Of a stretch of 36,227 nt of DNA, positions 1,391 to 33,031 are shown piece by piece; position 1 is the stretch's first letter; each line of letters opens with the position of its first letter. The stretch is from NCBI GenBank assembly GCA_013287205.1, contig JABDEE010000008.1, positions 1-36,227 on the forward strand. Reading direction: 5' to 3'. The notes beneath the pieces are model-generated. The model had not been told where the DNA came from and did no database searches. It saw nothing but the letters and a program-made list of their open reading frames with translations. The position numbers and the translations under genes were made by a program. This DNA is from Alphaproteobacteria bacterium (GTDB lineage Bacteria; Pseudomonadota; Alphaproteobacteria; UBA9655).

Positions 1391-1663
1391 TTAATTTTTA
1401 CCACATAAGATAAGAAGACTCTCCTGTCCTCCCTCAATCTCCACCTCTTTTAGCCGTGCCTTCGCCCCTCGCACGATCGTGATCTTTGATTTGGGCACAG
1501 AGAAGGTTTTGCTGAGAAGCTTGATGAGGGCGTCATTGGCTTTGCCATCTTCAGGCACGGCCGTGACCTTGATGCGCAAGCGCTTCTCCCCTTTCTCATC
1601 TATCTCCCATCCTTCAATTTTATTATGAGACGCATTGGGGGTAAGATGAATGAGGAGTTTCAT
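1391..1663 (-). CDS. DUF167 / YggU family protein
   Basis: Sequence LRIKVTAVPEDGKANDALIKLLSKTFSVPKSKITIVRGAKARLKEVEI typical of DUF167; start overlaps lipB stop (ATGA). Confidence 0.85.
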   Translation of the reverse strand: MKLLIHLTPNASHNKIEGWEIDEKGEKRLRIKVTAVPEDGKANDALIKLLSKTFSVPKSKITIVRGAKARLKEVEIEGGQESLLILCGKN

Positions 1664-2349
1664 GTGTTAAATGGACAAGTTTTAATCAATACCTCATCCA
1701 CTTCTTCCATCGTCACTGTCACACCTAAATCGGCAAGAGAAGTCACCCCATACTGAGAGAGGCCACAAGGCACAATGTGCTGATAGGCTGTTAAATCTGG
1801 GGACACGTTGAGGGCAAACCCGTGGGAGGTGACCCACTTTTGCACCCGTACCCCGAGGGCTGCAATTTTGTGGTCCTTCCTCTTTTTTTCAACCCAGATG
1901 CCGACGCGACCCGGGCGCCGTTCTCCTTTGATTTCAAAGTGGGCTAGGGCTTGGATGATCCATTCTTCCAAAGTTGCCACATAGAGACGGAGGTCTTGCT
2001 CTCGTTTTCTCAAATCGATCATGGCGTAGACAATGCGTTGGCCAGGACCGTGATAGGTGACCTGCCCTCCTCTGCCTGTTTGAAAGGTAGGTAGGGTGGC
2101 GGAGGGAAGAATATCCAACGCCTTCCCGCTCGTACCTAAGGTGTAAAGCGGTGGGTGCTCAAGGAACCAGAGGCACTCGGGCTCAGTGCCTGCTTGGATG
2201 GCAGACACGCGGGTGGACATCCACTCCAGTGTAGCGGTGTAGCAGTGGAGCGGTGGAGCAGATGGTGTGCTGTTCTTCTCTACCGTCTCATCGTTATATG
2301 TATTCGACTTTTTTGACATATTTTTATTGACATCCATTTTTACAAGCAT
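1660..2349 (-). CDS. lipB: Octanoyltransferase LipB with a repeat-encoded N-terminal extension (start could be at 2349, 2337 or 2319)
   Basis: Motifs LEHPPLYTLGTSG, TGRGGQVTYHGPGQRIVYAMIDLR, GFALNVSPDL; the N-terminal [33 protein letters not shown] is repeat-derived. Confidence 0.92.
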   Translation of the reverse strand: MLVKMDVNKNMSKKSNTYNDETVEKNSTPSAPPLHCYTATLEWMSTRVSAIQAGTEPECLWFLEHPPLYTLGTSGKALDILPSATLPTFQTGRGGQVTYHGPGQRIVYAMIDLRKREQDLRLYVATLEEWIIQALAHFEIKGERRPGRVGIWVEKKRKDHKIAALGVRVQKWVTSHGFALNVSPDLTAYQHIVPCGLSQYGVTSLADLGVTVTMEEVDEVLIKTCPFNT

Positions 2350-2421
2350 TCCCCTTCCGCTACACCGCTACACCGCTACACCGCTACACCGCTACACCGC
2401 TACACCGCTACACCGCTACAC
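2227..2421. repeat. Composite octamer-arm palindromic element E1 (cytochrome c1 | lipB junction)
   Basis: Eight perfect tandem CCGCTACA units at 2357-2420, AT-rich core about 2270-2350, inverted arm AGTGTAGCGGTGTAGCAGTGGAGCGGTGGAGC at 2227-2258. Confidence 0.9.
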
Positions 2422-4391
2422 TTTCTTCCAAATACGTCGCATCAGGAAATACATCAACACGGAAAAAACGCTACAATAAAGCAGCACCCGGACTCCCATG
2501 CGTTTGCGGGCCTCAAGTTCCGGCTCAGCGGCCCAAGCAAGGAAGGCTGTGACATCATGGGCCATTTGTTTTACGGACGGTTTTTCTCCATTATCATAGG
2601 TGACGAGCCCCTCAGAGAGAGGGGGGGGGCATGGCGATTTGCCCTCCTGGAAAGATGGGGTTATAGGACATGCCAGCGGCAAGCTCGACGTTTTTCGGCG
2701 GCGTTGCCTTATAGCTCGTGAGCAGGTCAAACACATAATGCGCCCCCCCTTCCCGCGCCTTTATGATTAAAGAGAGATCAGGCGGATGGGCGCCATTGTT
2801 GGCAGCACGAGCAGCCTTTTCATTTTTTGTAAGGATTGGGAAAGAGATCTGTCGGAAGAGCGAGTCTTTCAGCGGGCTCTCCCTGATCATTGATGTCCGC
2901 AACTTTATACGCGGAGGCAATCTTTTTGACTTCCTCCCCTGTATAGCCCAATCCTTCTAAATCCCGAAAGCGCACTTGATCCAGACCATGGCAGGCGGCA
3001 CACACCTGTTTATAGATCTCAAACCCATGTTGCAGTTCTGCGCGGTCATAGGTGCCGAGAGGGTTTTCAAAAGACCAATGTTGATCAGCACAAATAGCGG
3101 GGGGGCCGCTTAGGAAAAAGATCATTAGGAGGCTGGTGGGAAGGGGGCGCGGTTTCTCAAAGATCCCCATCAAGGGAAGAGCAATGAGAAAGAAAGCAAA
3201 ATAGAGGAAGGTTGTGACTTGCCCTAGAATCTGGTTTGAAACCCCACTGCTGTAGACATAATCCGGGGAATGGGCGCCCACAAACCCGAGGACGAGACAA
3301 TTCAAAACAAATACCCAGAACACCCATTTGAAGATAGGGCGGAAGGTAGCGCTGCGTACCTTCGAGCGGTCAAGCCAGGGCAGGACAAAGAGAATGAGGA
3401 CCGCTCCAAACATGGCAATGACACCAAAGAGCTTATTGGGAATCGAACGTAAAATGGCGTAGAACGGCAAAAAGTACCACTCGGGCACGATATGAGGCGG
3501 TGTGACGAGAGGATTGGCGGGGATATAATTGTCCGGTTCTCCAAAGAAATTGGGCTCAAAGAAAATAAAGTAGGACCAAATGGCGGCAAAAATGCCGAGG
3601 CCAAAGAGATCTTTCACGGTGTAATAGGGATGGAAGGGAATCTTCTCCTCTTTTTTACATTCAATCCCCAATGGATTGTTTGATCCATGTTGGTGCAATG
3701 CCACAAGGTGCAAACAGACAACGCCCACAATAAGGAAAGGGAAGAGGTAATGGAGCACAAAGAAACGATTAAGGGTTGGGCCTGAGACAGAAAATCCACC
3801 CCACAACCATTGCACAATGGACTCTCCAAAGGGGAATACGGAAAAGAGATTGGTGATGACAGTTGCTCCCCAGTAGCTCATCTGCCCCCAAGGGAGCACA
3901 TAGCCCATGAAGGCGGTCGCCATCATGAGGATGAGAATCACGACGCCGAGCATCCACAGGAGCTCCCGCGGGGCTTTATAGGAACCATAGTAAAGTCCTC
4001 GGAACATATGAATGTACACGAGGATAAAGAACATACTGGCCCCATTGGCGTGCAAATAACGCATGAACCATCCATAGTTCACATTGCGCATGATGTATTC
4101 CACACTTTCAAAGGCCTTGTCGGCACTGGGGTCATAATGCATCGCCAGAAAAATGCCAGATAGGATCATGATGACCAGGGTAATGCCGGACAGAGATCCA
4201 AAGTTCCACCAATAGTTTAAATTTTTTGGGGTGGGGTACTTCGTGAGTTCCTTGTCGATGAAGGTAAAGATGGGGAGACGGTGGTCGATCCACTGACGTA
4301 GTGGAGCGGTGGAGCAGTGGAGCGGTGGAGCAGATGCTGCGCTGTTCTTCTCTACCGTCTCATCGTTATATGTATTCGACTTTTTTGACAT
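2416..4391 (-). pseudogene. Fused cytochrome b / cytochrome c1 (FbcH-type bc1 polyprotein) interrupted by two +1 homopolymer frameshifts; may be a sequencing artefact rather than a true pseudogene
   Basis: Cyt b: [69 protein letters not shown]. c1: [13 protein letters not shown] haem site, [19 protein letters not shown]-terminal TM anchor. Reading frame continues in three successive minus-strand ORFs (2820-4391, 2612-2920, 2416-2736). Confidence 0.88.
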
Positions 4392-4489
4392 ATTTTTATT
4401 GACGTCCTTTTTTACAAGTGGCTCATTTTTTCCGCTACACTCCGCCTTCGCTAAAGCTTCGGCGTGACGGCGGACGCTACACCGCTACC
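4299..4489. repeat. Composite octamer-arm palindromic element E2 (petA | cytochrome b junction) with embedded hairpin TCCGCC...GGCGGA
   Basis: GTAGTGGAGCGGTGGAGCAGTGGAGCGGTGGAGC arm, core nearly identical to E1 over about 80 bp, right side CCGCTACACTCCGCCTTCGCTAAAGCTTCGGCGTGACGGCGGACGCTACACCGCTACC. Confidence 0.88.
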
Positions 4490-5035
4490 GATCCGAATGC
4501 TTGTTGCCGTCAAAAACGTATAAGGTGGCACTTCTAAATTCAACGGCGCGGGGCCGCGGCGCACTCGCCCTGAAACATCATAGAGGGATCCATGGCAGGG
4601 ACAGGCCCATCCCCCATACTTGCCTCGCGTCTCTGTAGGTTTGTTGCCTGTGGGAATGCATCCCAAATGGGTACAAATCCCAACAACCACGAGCCATGGG
4701 TTGTGGCCCTTTTTCACACGGTCCTGATCGGTTTGTGGATCAATCAAATCTTTTAAAGGCGTTGCCTCGGCAGCTTGAATCTCAGCCTGTGTACGATGAC
4801 GAATAAAGATGGGTTTTCCTCGCCACACCACCGTAATGGCTTGGCCCTCGGCAATGGGACTCAAGTCAACATCAATGGTTGATTGGGCCAAGATGTCAGC
4901 GGCAGGGTTCATGCTGTCAAGGAAGGGCCAGGCAAAATAGGCGGCTCCCACAGCGCCCACCGCACTTGCCGTCAGGAGAAGAAAGTCCCGGCGGGTGGGA
5001 TTGGGAACATCTGAGGAGTCTGATGGTTTTTTCAT
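4451..5035 (-). CDS. petA: Ubiquinol-cytochrome c reductase Rieske iron-sulfur subunit
   Basis: TAT-like N-terminus [10 protein letters not shown], Rieske motifs CTHLGC and CPCHGS; C-terminal [11 protein letters not shown] is repeat-encoded. Confidence 0.95.
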
Positions 5036-5058: not shown

Positions 5059-5119
5059 AGTGGAGCGTCCGCCGTCGCGACAAAGGCGTGATCACGCCAG
5101 CGGAGGTGGAGTGTAGCAG
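5059..5119. repeat. Degenerate partial octamer/hairpin element E5 upstream of petA
   Basis: AGTGGAGCG TCCGCCGTCGCGAC...GATCACGCCAGCGGA GGTGGAGTGTAGCAG: octamer remnants flank a TCCGCCGTCGCGAC module also seen near 33013-33031. Confidence 0.6.
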
Positions 5120-9378: not shown

Positions 9379-10964
9379 CGAGGCAATTCTTCCTTGTTTA
9401 ATTTATAAATTGTTATACGCGCATTTGGTTTTTGTATGAAAATCAAACGATCACGGATATCTTGCGGGAGTTGAGAAAACCCAGTTCCGTCGAGAGCAAT
9501 GAACGGATCCTTCTCTTCTCCCAATGCTTTTTGGAACTCTTGAATGTCACGGACAAGACGGGCCTGTCCTGCCGAATAGAATTCTATCGAATACGCTCCT
9601 TTACACCAATAGATGAGTTTACCTTTTTCCTCTTTCTGAAGGGGAGAAAAGGATTCTGCCACTTCTTTTTGACTGAGGACAAATTTATAAAAAAGACTTG
9701 GATTTAGCAAGAAGATACTCACAATGATTCCCATCAAGCAGGGAGGGATGAGGCAGGACCCCAAAAAGGCCCTTTGTTTCCAAAGCGTGTCTTTTATATT
9801 GAGGTAGCCATAAGCAATCAAAAGAGAAAAGGCCGGAATCGCCGGAAGCGGATAGGCCATGGTGATGTTGCTGCAGACGGTGAAAAAGATCAACGGGGTG
9901 AGTGTCCACAGCAGAAGGTAAAACGTCCAACCGTCATTTTCACTTTCTTCCTTGTTATCTCCGTCTCTCTCTTTGTCATCCCCGCGGAGGCGGGGACCCA
10001 GGCTTAACACCTTTTTTTTTGTGTTTGATACAGAAAATATATTTGAAAGCAGATAAAAAAAACTGTCAGGTCTGGGTCCCCGCCTCCGCGGGGATGACAG
10101 CGTTAAGTAGATACCCCACAAAGACCAGGGGAACATCCCTCCAAGCCAAAAAAGCCAAATGGTTCCTTTTGGGTACGGGTGCCCATTTCCGTAGAGGTCT
10201 CCCGACCATCCTTTAATGAGAAAGCGCTTAAAGTGTTCATCCACAAAAAAATACTCAAGAAAGCCAGGTGTTCTCATCTCAGCCAAAACAAACCAAGGCA
10301 CCGTGAGGATAAGGACGAGGAGTCCCCCTGAAATCCAGGGAACCTTTTTCCAGAGTTCCAGGAGTGTGACTTGACTTACACCCCAAATAAAGACGGGAAC
10401 GCCTGTGAAAATGAGCGCAATCGGTCCTTTCGATAGGAATCCAATGGCAAGACCCACAAAGAAAAGATATCGCCAGCACGACGGGGCGGCCCCCCTCATC
10501 GTATGCCAAAAGGCCACCATGGAGAGAGTGGTGCCAAAGGTCAGCGTAATGTCTGTCAGCACACTCCCACTGACGATATAAAATAAGGTGCTTGTCAAAA
10601 GGACGAGGGCGCTGAGGAGGGGGAGCTCTGTCTGGGGGCGGCTGCGGGCTAGGCTCATGACAAGCCCGATAACTCCTAAAGCGACCAGAAACGTGGGCAG
10701 CCTCACCGCAAAGGCATTTATCCCACATACAGACAGCCCCGTGGCTGCTGCCCATGTGGAGAGAGGTGGTTTTGCCCAGAACGGAATACCGTAGCTGGAC
10801 CAGAGGGTCACCCAATCGCCGGTTGCCACCATCTTACGAGCAATTTCGGCATACCGGGATTCAGAGGGATCCATGAGGGGCAAGCAATACATGCCGAGCA
10901 ACCGCACGACACCCGCAAACATCAGAAGATACATCCATTTTGAGGTGTGTCTTAATTGGGTCAT
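9375..10964 (-). CDS. ArnT-like / PMT family membrane glycosyltransferase with in-frame palindromic repeat insertion
   Basis: LPLMDPSESRYAEIARKMVATGDWVTLWSSYGIPFWAKPPLSTW, multiple TM segments; SSPRRRGPRPD...LGPRLRGDDKERD insertion in a loop. Confidence 0.88.
   Translation of the reverse strand: MTQLRHTSKWMYLLMFAGVVRLLGMYCLPLMDPSESRYAEIARKMVATGDWVTLWSSYGIPFWAKPPLSTWAAATGLSVCGINAFAVRLPTFLVALGVIGLVMSLARSRPQTELPLLSALVLLTSTLFYIVSGSVLTDITLTFGTTLSMVAFWHTMRGAAPSCWRYLFFVGLAIGFLSKGPIALIFTGVPVFIWGVSQVTLLELWKKVPWISGGLLVLILTVPWFVLAEMRTPGFLEYFFVDEHFKRFLIKGWSGDLYGNGHPYPKGTIWLFWLGGMFPWSLWGIYLTLSSPRRRGPRPDSFFYLLSNIFSVSNTKKKVLSLGPRLRGDDKERDGDNKEESENDGWTFYLLLWTLTPLIFFTVCSNITMAYPLPAIPAFSLLIAYGYLNIKDTLWKQRAFLGSCLIPPCLMGIIVSIFLLNPSLFYKFVLSQKEVAESFSPLQKEEKGKLIYWCKGAYSIEFYSAGQARLVRDIQEFQKALGEEKDPFIALDGTGFSQLPQDIRDRLIFIQKPNARITIYKLNKEELPR
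9973..10100. repeat. Palindromic dispersed element, copy 2 (TTGTCATCCCCGCGGAGGCGGGG ... CCCCGCCTCCGCGGGGATGACA), inside the ArnT-like CDS
   Basis: Inverted termini and internal sequence homologous to 43-184. Confidence 0.9.
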
Positions 10965-17062: not shown

Positions 17063-17890
17063 ATGCCTTTTCCATCCATCGACCCCATTGCCTTTCAATT
17101 TGGTCCGTTTGCCATTCGTTGGTATGGTATTGCTTATGTGGTGGGAATCTTGGGATGGTGGAAGTATAGCTTGTGGCTCCTGAAAAAACGGCCTCAAGCC
17201 TTTCCGAAAGTGACCGCCCAGTTGATTGATGACTATGTGGGCTGGGCGATTGGGGGGGTCATTATCGGGGGACGCTTGGGATGGGTTCTCTTTTATCAAC
17301 CTGCCAAGTATCTCGCCGATCCTCTACAAATCTTCCAAGTGTGGAAAGGGGGCATGGCGTTCCATGGGGGGCTTCTCGGAGTTGCCATTGCAACGCTCCT
17401 TTACGCTCACCGCCATCACATTCGCGCCCTTTCTTTTATGGATTTGGTGTGTTGTGGTATTCCTATCGGTTTGTTTTTTGGTCGCATTGCTAACTTTATT
17501 AATGGGGAGCTTTATGGGCGGGTGACAGATGTTTCTTGGGGAGTTCTTTTTCCTCATGGCGGATGGTTGCCCCGTCATCCGAGTCAACTGTATGAAGCGT
17601 GCTTGGAAGGACTCCTTCTCTTTGTGGTCCTCGGGGTCAGTGCCCTCTGGACCCGTGCGCCTGACAGGCGGGGCTGCATGACCGGCCTCTTTCTGGCTGG
17701 ATATGGCTTGGCTCGCATTGCGGCTGAATGTTTTCGAGAACCGGACGCCTTTTTGGGTACTTTTGTGGGAGGGGTAACGATGGGACAATTGCTTTCCATT
17801 CCCTTGGTACTCGTTGGTTCCTTTCTGATCATAAGAGCTTCTAGGGGAACTAGTGTAGCGGTGAGAAAATGGGACGCTTTTACAAAATGA
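17063..17890 (+). CDS. lgt: Prolipoprotein diacylglyceryl transferase; C-terminus overlaps repeat E3
   Basis: GPFAIRWYGIAYVVGI, GGRLGWVLFYQP, GGMAFHGGLLG, RIANFINGELYGR, RHPSQLYEA. Confidence 0.96.
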   Translation: MPFPSIDPIAFQFGPFAIRWYGIAYVVGILGWWKYSLWLLKKRPQAFPKVTAQLIDDYVGWAIGGVIIGGRLGWVLFYQPAKYLADPLQIFQVWKGGMAFHGGLLGVAIATLLYAHRHHIRALSFMDLVCCGIPIGLFFGRIANFINGELYGRVTDVSWGVLFPHGGWLPRHPSQLYEACLEGLLLFVVLGVSALWTRAPDRRGCMTGLFLAGYGLARIAAECFREPDAFLGTFVGGVTMGQLLSIPLVLVGSFLIIRASRGTSVAVRKWDAFTK

Positions 17891-17983
17891 CTGTCAACAC
17901 ATTTTTATTATATAGGCACTCACGATGTCTGAAAAAAAAGATGTAACTGCTCCACCGCTACACTGCTCCACCGCTACACTGCT
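17850..17983. repeat. Composite octamer-arm element E3 (lgt | midA junction), short stop arm
   Basis: TAGTGTAGCGGTGAG arm, core ATGACTGTCAACACATTTTTATTATATAGG...ATGTCTGAAAAAAAAG, right arm GCTCCACCGCTACACTGCTCCACCGCTACACTGCT. Confidence 0.8.
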
Positions 17984-18965
17984 TTCCCAAGGTCAATTCA
18001 TGGAGCTCGCCCTGCAACATCCCGACTCTGGGTATTATCGTACCCAGCAAGCCGTGGGCCAAGATTTCACAACGGCCCCTGAGATCTCTCAAGTTTTTGG
18101 GGAGCTCATTGGGGCTTGGGTGCTTGATATTTATGAACAGCTCGGATCTCCTTCTCAGGTGAATCTTGTGGAGCTGGGGCCGGGACGCGGGACGCTGATG
18201 GCGGATTTGCTCAGGGTTGCTGCTTTGTCTCCCGCCTTTATGGCGGCCCTGCAGATTCATCTGGTTGAAATCAATCCCTTCCTTCTGCAGCAACAAAAAG
18301 GAAAAATTCATCATTCTGAGATTTATTGGCATGAAACGGTAGAGACCCTGCCCCTGCAAGCGCCCCTCCTCCTCATTGCCAATGAGTTTTTTGATGCCAT
18401 GCCGACACATTTTTATAGACGCCAAGAGAATATGCTCTATGAACGCTTCATTGATCTGTCTGGGGAGGAACCTGTTTTTACCTTTCTTCCTCTTGCATCC
18501 GAAGAAGGCGAGGACGTGGAATGGGAGACAAGTCCTGTTTCTCTCCATATTATGGAGCTCTTGAGTCAACGCCTTCGCCTTCAGGGAGGTGTCTGTCTCC
18601 TGATTGATTATGGGTATGAGAGCGGCACGGGAGATACACTCCAGGCTCTTTTCAGGGGCGAGCCCTCCCCTCCCCTTTCCCACATTGGTAAGTCGGATTT
18701 AACCTGTCATGTCAATTTTGGCGCCCTTAAGCAGGTCGCCATAACCCAAGGCCTTTCCGTTTTTGGTCCTGTCTCCCAACGTACTTTCTTAAAAAACTTG
18801 GGAATTGACTTGCGAATTGCTCAGCTGCAACATAAAAACAAGCAAGAAGCTGCTGTCCTGAACGTTGCTCACGCGCGTCTTACCCATCCTTGCCAAATGG
18901 GGACACTGTTTAAGGCGATGGCAATTGTTTCGCAAGCGCTCATCCCAGGAGGATTTCACGAATGA
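17925..18965 (+). CDS. SAM-dependent methyltransferase, MidA/NDUFAF7 family, with repeat-derived N-terminus
   Basis: HPDSGYYRTQQAVGQDFTTAPEISQVFGELIGAWV, VELGPGRGTLMADLLR, NEFFDAMPTH; N-terminus [13 protein letters not shown]. Confidence 0.92.
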   Translation: MSEKKDVTAPPLHCSTATLLSQGQFMELALQHPDSGYYRTQQAVGQDFTTAPEISQVFGELIGAWVLDIYEQLGSPSQVNLVELGPGRGTLMADLLRVAALSPAFMAALQIHLVEINPFLLQQQKGKIHHSEIYWHETVETLPLQAPLLLIANEFFDAMPTHFYRRQENMLYERFIDLSGEEPVFTFLPLASEEGEDVEWETSPVSLHIMELLSQRLRLQGGVCLLIDYGYESGTGDTLQALFRGEPSPPLSHIGKSDLTCHVNFGALKQVAITQGLSVFGPVSQRTFLKNLGIDLRIAQLQHKNKQEAAVLNVAHARLTHPCQMGTLFKAMAIVSQALIPGGFHE

Positions 18966-32821: not shown

Positions 32822-33031
32822 AGTATAGCGGTGTAGCGGTGTAGCGGTGTAGCAGACAGTAAAGCAGTGTGACTGTGGAGCAGATATTTTGTTGATCATC
32901 ATCTCATTTCCATATTTTTCGATATATTTTTTATTGACAGCCATTTCTATACTTATTCCTCCACCGCTCCACCCGCCTTCGCTAAAGCTTCGGCGGACCA
33001 TCCGCCATAGCGACTTCGTCGCGACGGCGGG
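32822..33031. repeat. Composite octamer-arm element E4 (nuoD | nuoE junction) with embedded nested hairpins
   Basis: AGCGGTGTAGCGGTGTAGCGGTGTAGCAG arm, core on transcript strand ATGGCTGTCAATAAAAAATATATCG..., then CCACCGCTCCACCCGCCTTCGCTAAAGCTTCGGCGGACC...GTCGCGACGGCGGG. Confidence 0.85.

Follow-up and report, generated by a model that had tools for sequence, protein, structure and literature searches.

Octamer-armed palindromic repeats that probably end one gene and start the next at gene junctions of an alphaproteobacterium

Small palindromic repeats that contribute to coding sequences have been described in several bacteria. Rickettsia palindromic elements (RPE) are found as in-frame fusions with many genes (reviewed in PMC10969869). 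In enterobacteria, ERIC and the RU-1 and RU-2 sequences are presented, in the passages cited here, as small palindromic mobile sequences that carry ORFs and in some cases form fusions with a gene at its N- or C-terminus, one of which lies within a predicted signal sequence (PMC2759123). Finally, QMITE1 and QMITE2 of Coxiella burnetii are MITEs that overlap gene ends and add residues or stops (PMC5896051). The element considered here, E3, occupies positions 17850-17983 of a 36,227-nt stretch of alphaproteobacterial DNA (the window). It lies at the junction of lgt (17063..17890, plus strand) and midA (Methyltransf_28; 17925..18965, plus strand), two genes whose identities were taken from NCBIfam and Pfam.

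E3 is a member of a dispersed family built from the octamer GTGTAGCG and its variants, arranged as inverted arrays that flank an AT-rich core. Its left arm (AGTGTAGCGGTGAG; 17852..17865, plus strand) is the inward, stop-bearing one, of about 1.75 octamers, and reads as the Lgt C-terminus SVAV(R). The Lgt reading frame crosses this arm (TSVAVRKWDAFTK) and stops at TGA 17888-17890, inside the core (17866..17946, plus strand), where it is followed by the core sequence ACAAAATGACTGTCAACACATTTTTATTATATAGGCACTCACGATGTCTGAAAAAAAAG. The core also contains two ATG codons. The first, at 17887, opens ORF1 (MTVNTFLLYR..) and corresponds to the conserved start of the type A copies described below; ORF1 of E3 ends out of frame, and the second ATG, at 17925, is the start of MidA and reads MSEKKDVT. 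The right arm (CTGCTCCACCGCTACACTGCTCCACCGCTACACTG; 17947..17981, plus strand) is outward and stop-free, counts about 4.5 octamers and encodes 11 residues of MidA. As expected from inverted arms, E3 is predicted to fold as RNA into a long hairpin (z = -3.6), as is E1, another copy in the window (z = -5.9). The layout of arms, TGA in the core and open arm at the MidA N-terminus is the one that an earlier note on this sequence had proposed.

The order lgt-midA-pgeF is conserved, other families included, and in most of the genus relatives whose junction was compared the midA ATG overlaps the lgt stop by 8 nt (AATGCTTAA). The left arm of E3 begins at the point where the two genes overlap in these relatives. 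Lgt orthologues end in ..RALLREENA, where the present protein ends in ..RASRGTSVAVRKWDAFTK; MidA orthologues of the genus begin with MLxxLLxxEIKEKGPLSQSRFM, in place of which residues 1-18 are here encoded by the element, residue 20 being the first with homology to orthologues. E3 stands in for the final residues of Lgt and approximately the first 15 codons of MidA. Since the orthologue termini differ from those found here, E3 has replaced, and not merely separated, the two gene ends, and the comparison with orthologues confirms the proposal that both are element-encoded. MidA also has an internal alternative start at Met26 (18000), with AAGG seven bases upstream. In the relative G005, a different palindromic repeat (GTCATCCTGAGC...) is inserted at the lgt-midA junction (L183, ~1330-1490); it is flanked by an 11-nt duplication (AAAATGCTTGA), which leaves lgt with its stop and midA with its start.

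Counts across the genome refer to the 946-kb MAG, which is 64% complete. Octamer arrays occur at 33 sites, a few of which, 16-bp single-arm ones, may be due to chance. The octamer pair pattern gave 142 matches in 49 arrays; a single mononucleotide shuffle yielded 8 matches, and reversing the pattern yielded 3. Arms of 2-10 octamer units lie within coding N-termini, and inverted arms enclose cores of about 65-105 bp. Inward octamers carrying TAG provide stops in all three frames (one TAG per frame each 24 nt); outward octamers, (CGCTMCAC)n, have zero stops in any frame. Two types of core, with 11 copies of type A and 9 of type B, share the same arms and a common left half, the oriented type A alignment having a consensus of roughly GGAAGGgga...tTgTAAAAATGgaTGTCAATA. 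The right half is a purine-rich stretch in type A, usually with further ATGs, and a pyrimidine-rich stretch in type B (TTCTTTTCTCCTCTTATTTCTTACTTTTCTGACTAAC). The type A copies are found 5' of dnaE, tpiA, lipB, cytB, midA, nuoE, dnaJ, a Do-type protease gene, holC, tkt and a gene on C33. A copy on C21, which has only the left core half and precedes a tRNA-like sequence, was excluded from the type A counts.

Besides E3, the window contains three type A copies, all on the minus strand: E1 (EL12; 2228..2424) at the start of lipB, behind a cytochrome c1 ORF; E2 (EL13; 4300..4490) between the Rieske and cytochrome b genes; and a fourth copy, E4 (EL15; 32822..32973), between nuoD and nuoE, whose ORF ends in an ATGA overlap with the nuoE start. 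Other palindromic repeats are present as well. One of them (CCGCCTTCGCTAAAGCTTCGGCG...GTCGCGACGGCGG) adjoins or nests within octamer arrays at 4442-4484, 5060-5115 and 32973-33030 of the window, recurs at L067, L069, L071 and L072, and lengthens reading frames, for example at the Rieske C-terminus. Another (GTCATCCCCGCGAAGGCGGGG) has copies at 22-184 and 9972-10099 of the window.

E3 is a genuine copy of this family. A type A core profile trained on ten cores (that of C21 included, those of E3 and of the copy upstream of tpiA left out) scored E3 at 10.8 bits, above the maximum of 7.3 bits reached in 500 dinucleotide shuffles, and its only additional matches in the whole genome were E3 and the tpiA-upstream copy. 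This latter copy, on contig C7, is the closest to E3, with 64 of 69 core positions identical. As the profile score is modest, what links E3 to the subfamily of E1 and E2 is the left core half, together with the arms and the position. The earlier note had seen in E3 an older, diverged copy of E1/E2; because E3 and the tpiA element form one subfamily, it is better regarded as belonging to a separate subfamily than as simply an older copy.

The same note had argued for a preserved polarity relative to the genes from the succession of stop-arm and open-arm. This argument is uninformative: the arms are inverted repeats, so that each strand shows the same succession of stop-arm, core and open-arm, and arm order as evidence of polarity is a tautology. 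The polarity itself, judged by the core, is real for type A. All 11 type A cores, that of E3 among them, share the direction of the gene that follows (p = 0.0005 against 0.5), as compared with 4 of 9 type B cores (Fisher p = 0.008 for A versus B), which occupy mixed positions, including between convergent genes. All 11 type A copies also lie between co-directional genes, an arrangement that accounts for 71% of gene pairs genome-wide. Gene neighbours in these counts come from a simple gene finder trained on the MAG itself.

The replacement of a native N-terminus by element residues extends to seven genes: those of MidA, TpiA, DnaE, LipB (1660..2349, minus strand; element E1), Tkt, cytochrome b (2820..4391, minus strand; element E2) and the Do-type protease. 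For all but MidA, homology to orthologues begins at the edge of the element, and in dnaE and tpiA the element ORFs continue into the gene. The Rieske C-terminus is likewise replaced, at a junction where the native overlap with cytB is 4-8 nt in most relatives. Cytochrome b and c1 pieces are separate ORFs here (523 aa at 2820-4391 and 106 aa at 2416-2736 of the window), while relatives have one continuous frame of some 670 aa; the gene is possibly split or frameshifted in this genome. In the Do-type protease (L135; G000:C10, 15255 downstream, minus strand), the signal peptide is apparently half element-encoded (MLKKILLVATATLRHRYTATLLALLCLTTAPLSA).

In the four non-fused copies, the element ORF stops no more than 5 nt from the start of the next gene, with an ATGA overlap in two of them. 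By a strict rule, 10 of the 11 type A copies reach the next start through an ORF or short hops, versus 34% of a background of element-free intergenic ATGs located 40-150 nt 5' of a co-directional gene; the associated p = 0.0002 is only indicative, since the rule and the window of distances were chosen after the data had been seen and the design is liberal. SD-like runs precede ORF1 by about 15-20 nt, a spacing above the ideal, and a simple test found none in E3. A trained gene finder placed the starts of MidA and LipB within their native part.

These features could be read as neutral palindromic junk, inserted at random and surviving only at gene ends, with downstream genes using their own or internal starts. 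In-frame extensions would then be incidental, as the arm happens to lack stops, and indeed its sequence is free of stops in all frames. The mixed positions of type B copies also fit this reading, as do the internal Met codons that lie close by in MidA (Met26), Tkt and LipB and could serve as alternative starts. It is nevertheless unlikely, because the orientation of type A cores is uniform, and because DnaE, TpiA, cytochrome b and the Do-type protease have no native or other start between the element and their essential conserved residues. If these four proteins are expressed, the start within the element is needed. A second alternative, ectopic recombination among dispersed copies that would have joined genes and swapped their 5' ends, draws on the fact that the upstream neighbours of dnaE, tpiA, lipB and tkt are unlike those in relatives. 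It appears quite improbable, given that gene order is conserved at E3, Rieske-cytB and HflC-Do and that the termini are replaced nonetheless. More doubtful still are phase-variable switches. Gain or loss of an octamer would shift the downstream frame, 8 not being a multiple of 3, and arms of 2-10 units do occur within coding N-termini, but on/off switching is hardly to be expected of the core housekeeping genes affected.

From its sequence features, the family is probably a MITE-like, non-autonomous palindromic repeat that serves as translational punctuation between genes, ending one gene and starting the next. The inward arm, with a TAG in each frame, would cause any upstream gene that enters the element to terminate in the arm or core, giving the -SVAV* ends. 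Translation would start in the type A core, which has a purine-rich run, at the conserved ATG or at the second, overlapping ATG ORF that is often present, and the core ATGs would be used in vivo. As the outward arm is stop-free in all frames, ribosomes from a core ATG could be carried into the next gene. The in-frame N-terminal fusion would take over from the native start in seven copies; in the four others, an ORF ending at or beside the native start would permit translational coupling. Copies may have spread via transposition, selection retaining only the insertions oriented so as to give a working start. A more specific reading, offered tentatively and short of an even chance, is that each copy would be a cassette for translational punctuation, a single unit which supplies a stop to the upstream gene and a start with a stop-free, frame-flexible leader to the downstream one, and that the family has in this way rewritten the N-termini of a whole series of core genes in one lineage.

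Searched for in 14 further genomes from the genus, the type A core gave only short, low-significance matches, and it thus looks lineage-specific. In the relative G005, octamer arms surround different cores; one such related element occupies the pepA-holC junction, as in the present genome, and gene(s) there end in -SVAV*. The arms therefore either predate the type A core or have spread independently of it. A scan of GTDB for the octamer, source genome excluded, found arrays in unrelated taxa such as Saprospiraceae and Prevotellaceae, without the E3 core. Prevotellaceae/Bacteroidaceae also have AT-rich palindromes with the same octamer arms in the opposite polarity, CGCTACAC arrays being at the left (L088:727-975, L096:6612-6810, L099:2732-2980 and L103:7683-7880). 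No Rfam family matched the window at the gathering score, and the literature search returned neither the octamer string nor anything relevant on octanucleotide tandem repeats in Alphaproteobacteria.

Target-site duplications were not apparent around the copies: flanking k-mers were shared over a mean of 4.3, versus 4.0 in shuffled pairings, a comparison in which variable arms blur the element ends. No Y1 transposase (Y1_Tnp, PF01797) was detected in the 64%-complete MAG, versus 5 of 14 control genomes. The case for mobility therefore comes from dispersion only. A long element bearing these arms was not noticed in the incomplete MAG, where Y1_Tnp was the only transposase searched. REP/BIME sequences with their RAYT were considered and ruled against, the Y1 transposase being missing from this 64%-complete genome.

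If the punctuation reading is correct, selfish repeats can enter operons whose genes are densely packed, or even overlap, and leave them unbroken, and the N-termini of proteins such as DnaE, TpiA and cytochrome b can be overwritten in a single step. It predicts defined N-terminal peptides, namely SEKKDITAPLLHR for TpiA, NSSTSAPPLHR for DnaE and the 18 element residues for MidA. Gene callers would be liable to misplace starts in genomes with such elements, as at MidA and LipB.

Among the described systems, RPE resemble the present family in being palindromic repeats of about 150 bp, with several families in an alphaproteobacterium and in-frame fusions in protein-coding genes (PMC10969869). In-frame fusion was found here in seven genes, but at the start of the gene, not inside it; whereas RPE add internal peptides, the present copies sit at junctions, replace starts and stops, and have arms made of octamer arrays. 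Being short, multi-copy and bounded by terminal inverted repeats, the family would be filed, on its sequence characters, with MITE-like palindromic elements and not with RPE, to which it was compared by description only. ERIC and RU sequences share with it the character of small palindromes carrying ORFs fused to gene ends, but they are presented as individual cases, the passages cited here mentioning no bias in orientation at gene starts across a whole family, and their sequence and arms differ (PMC2759123). The QMITEs are likewise MITE-type elements at gene ends that contribute residues or stops; the functional genes they affect are all hit at the 3' end (PMC5896051), whereas in the present family the downstream gene has its 5' end replaced as well. 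Palindromic repeats within genes are known, for the most part where the host protein tolerates an internal peptide or where residues are added at the 3' end, and what would be new here is the co-directional replacement of gene starts.
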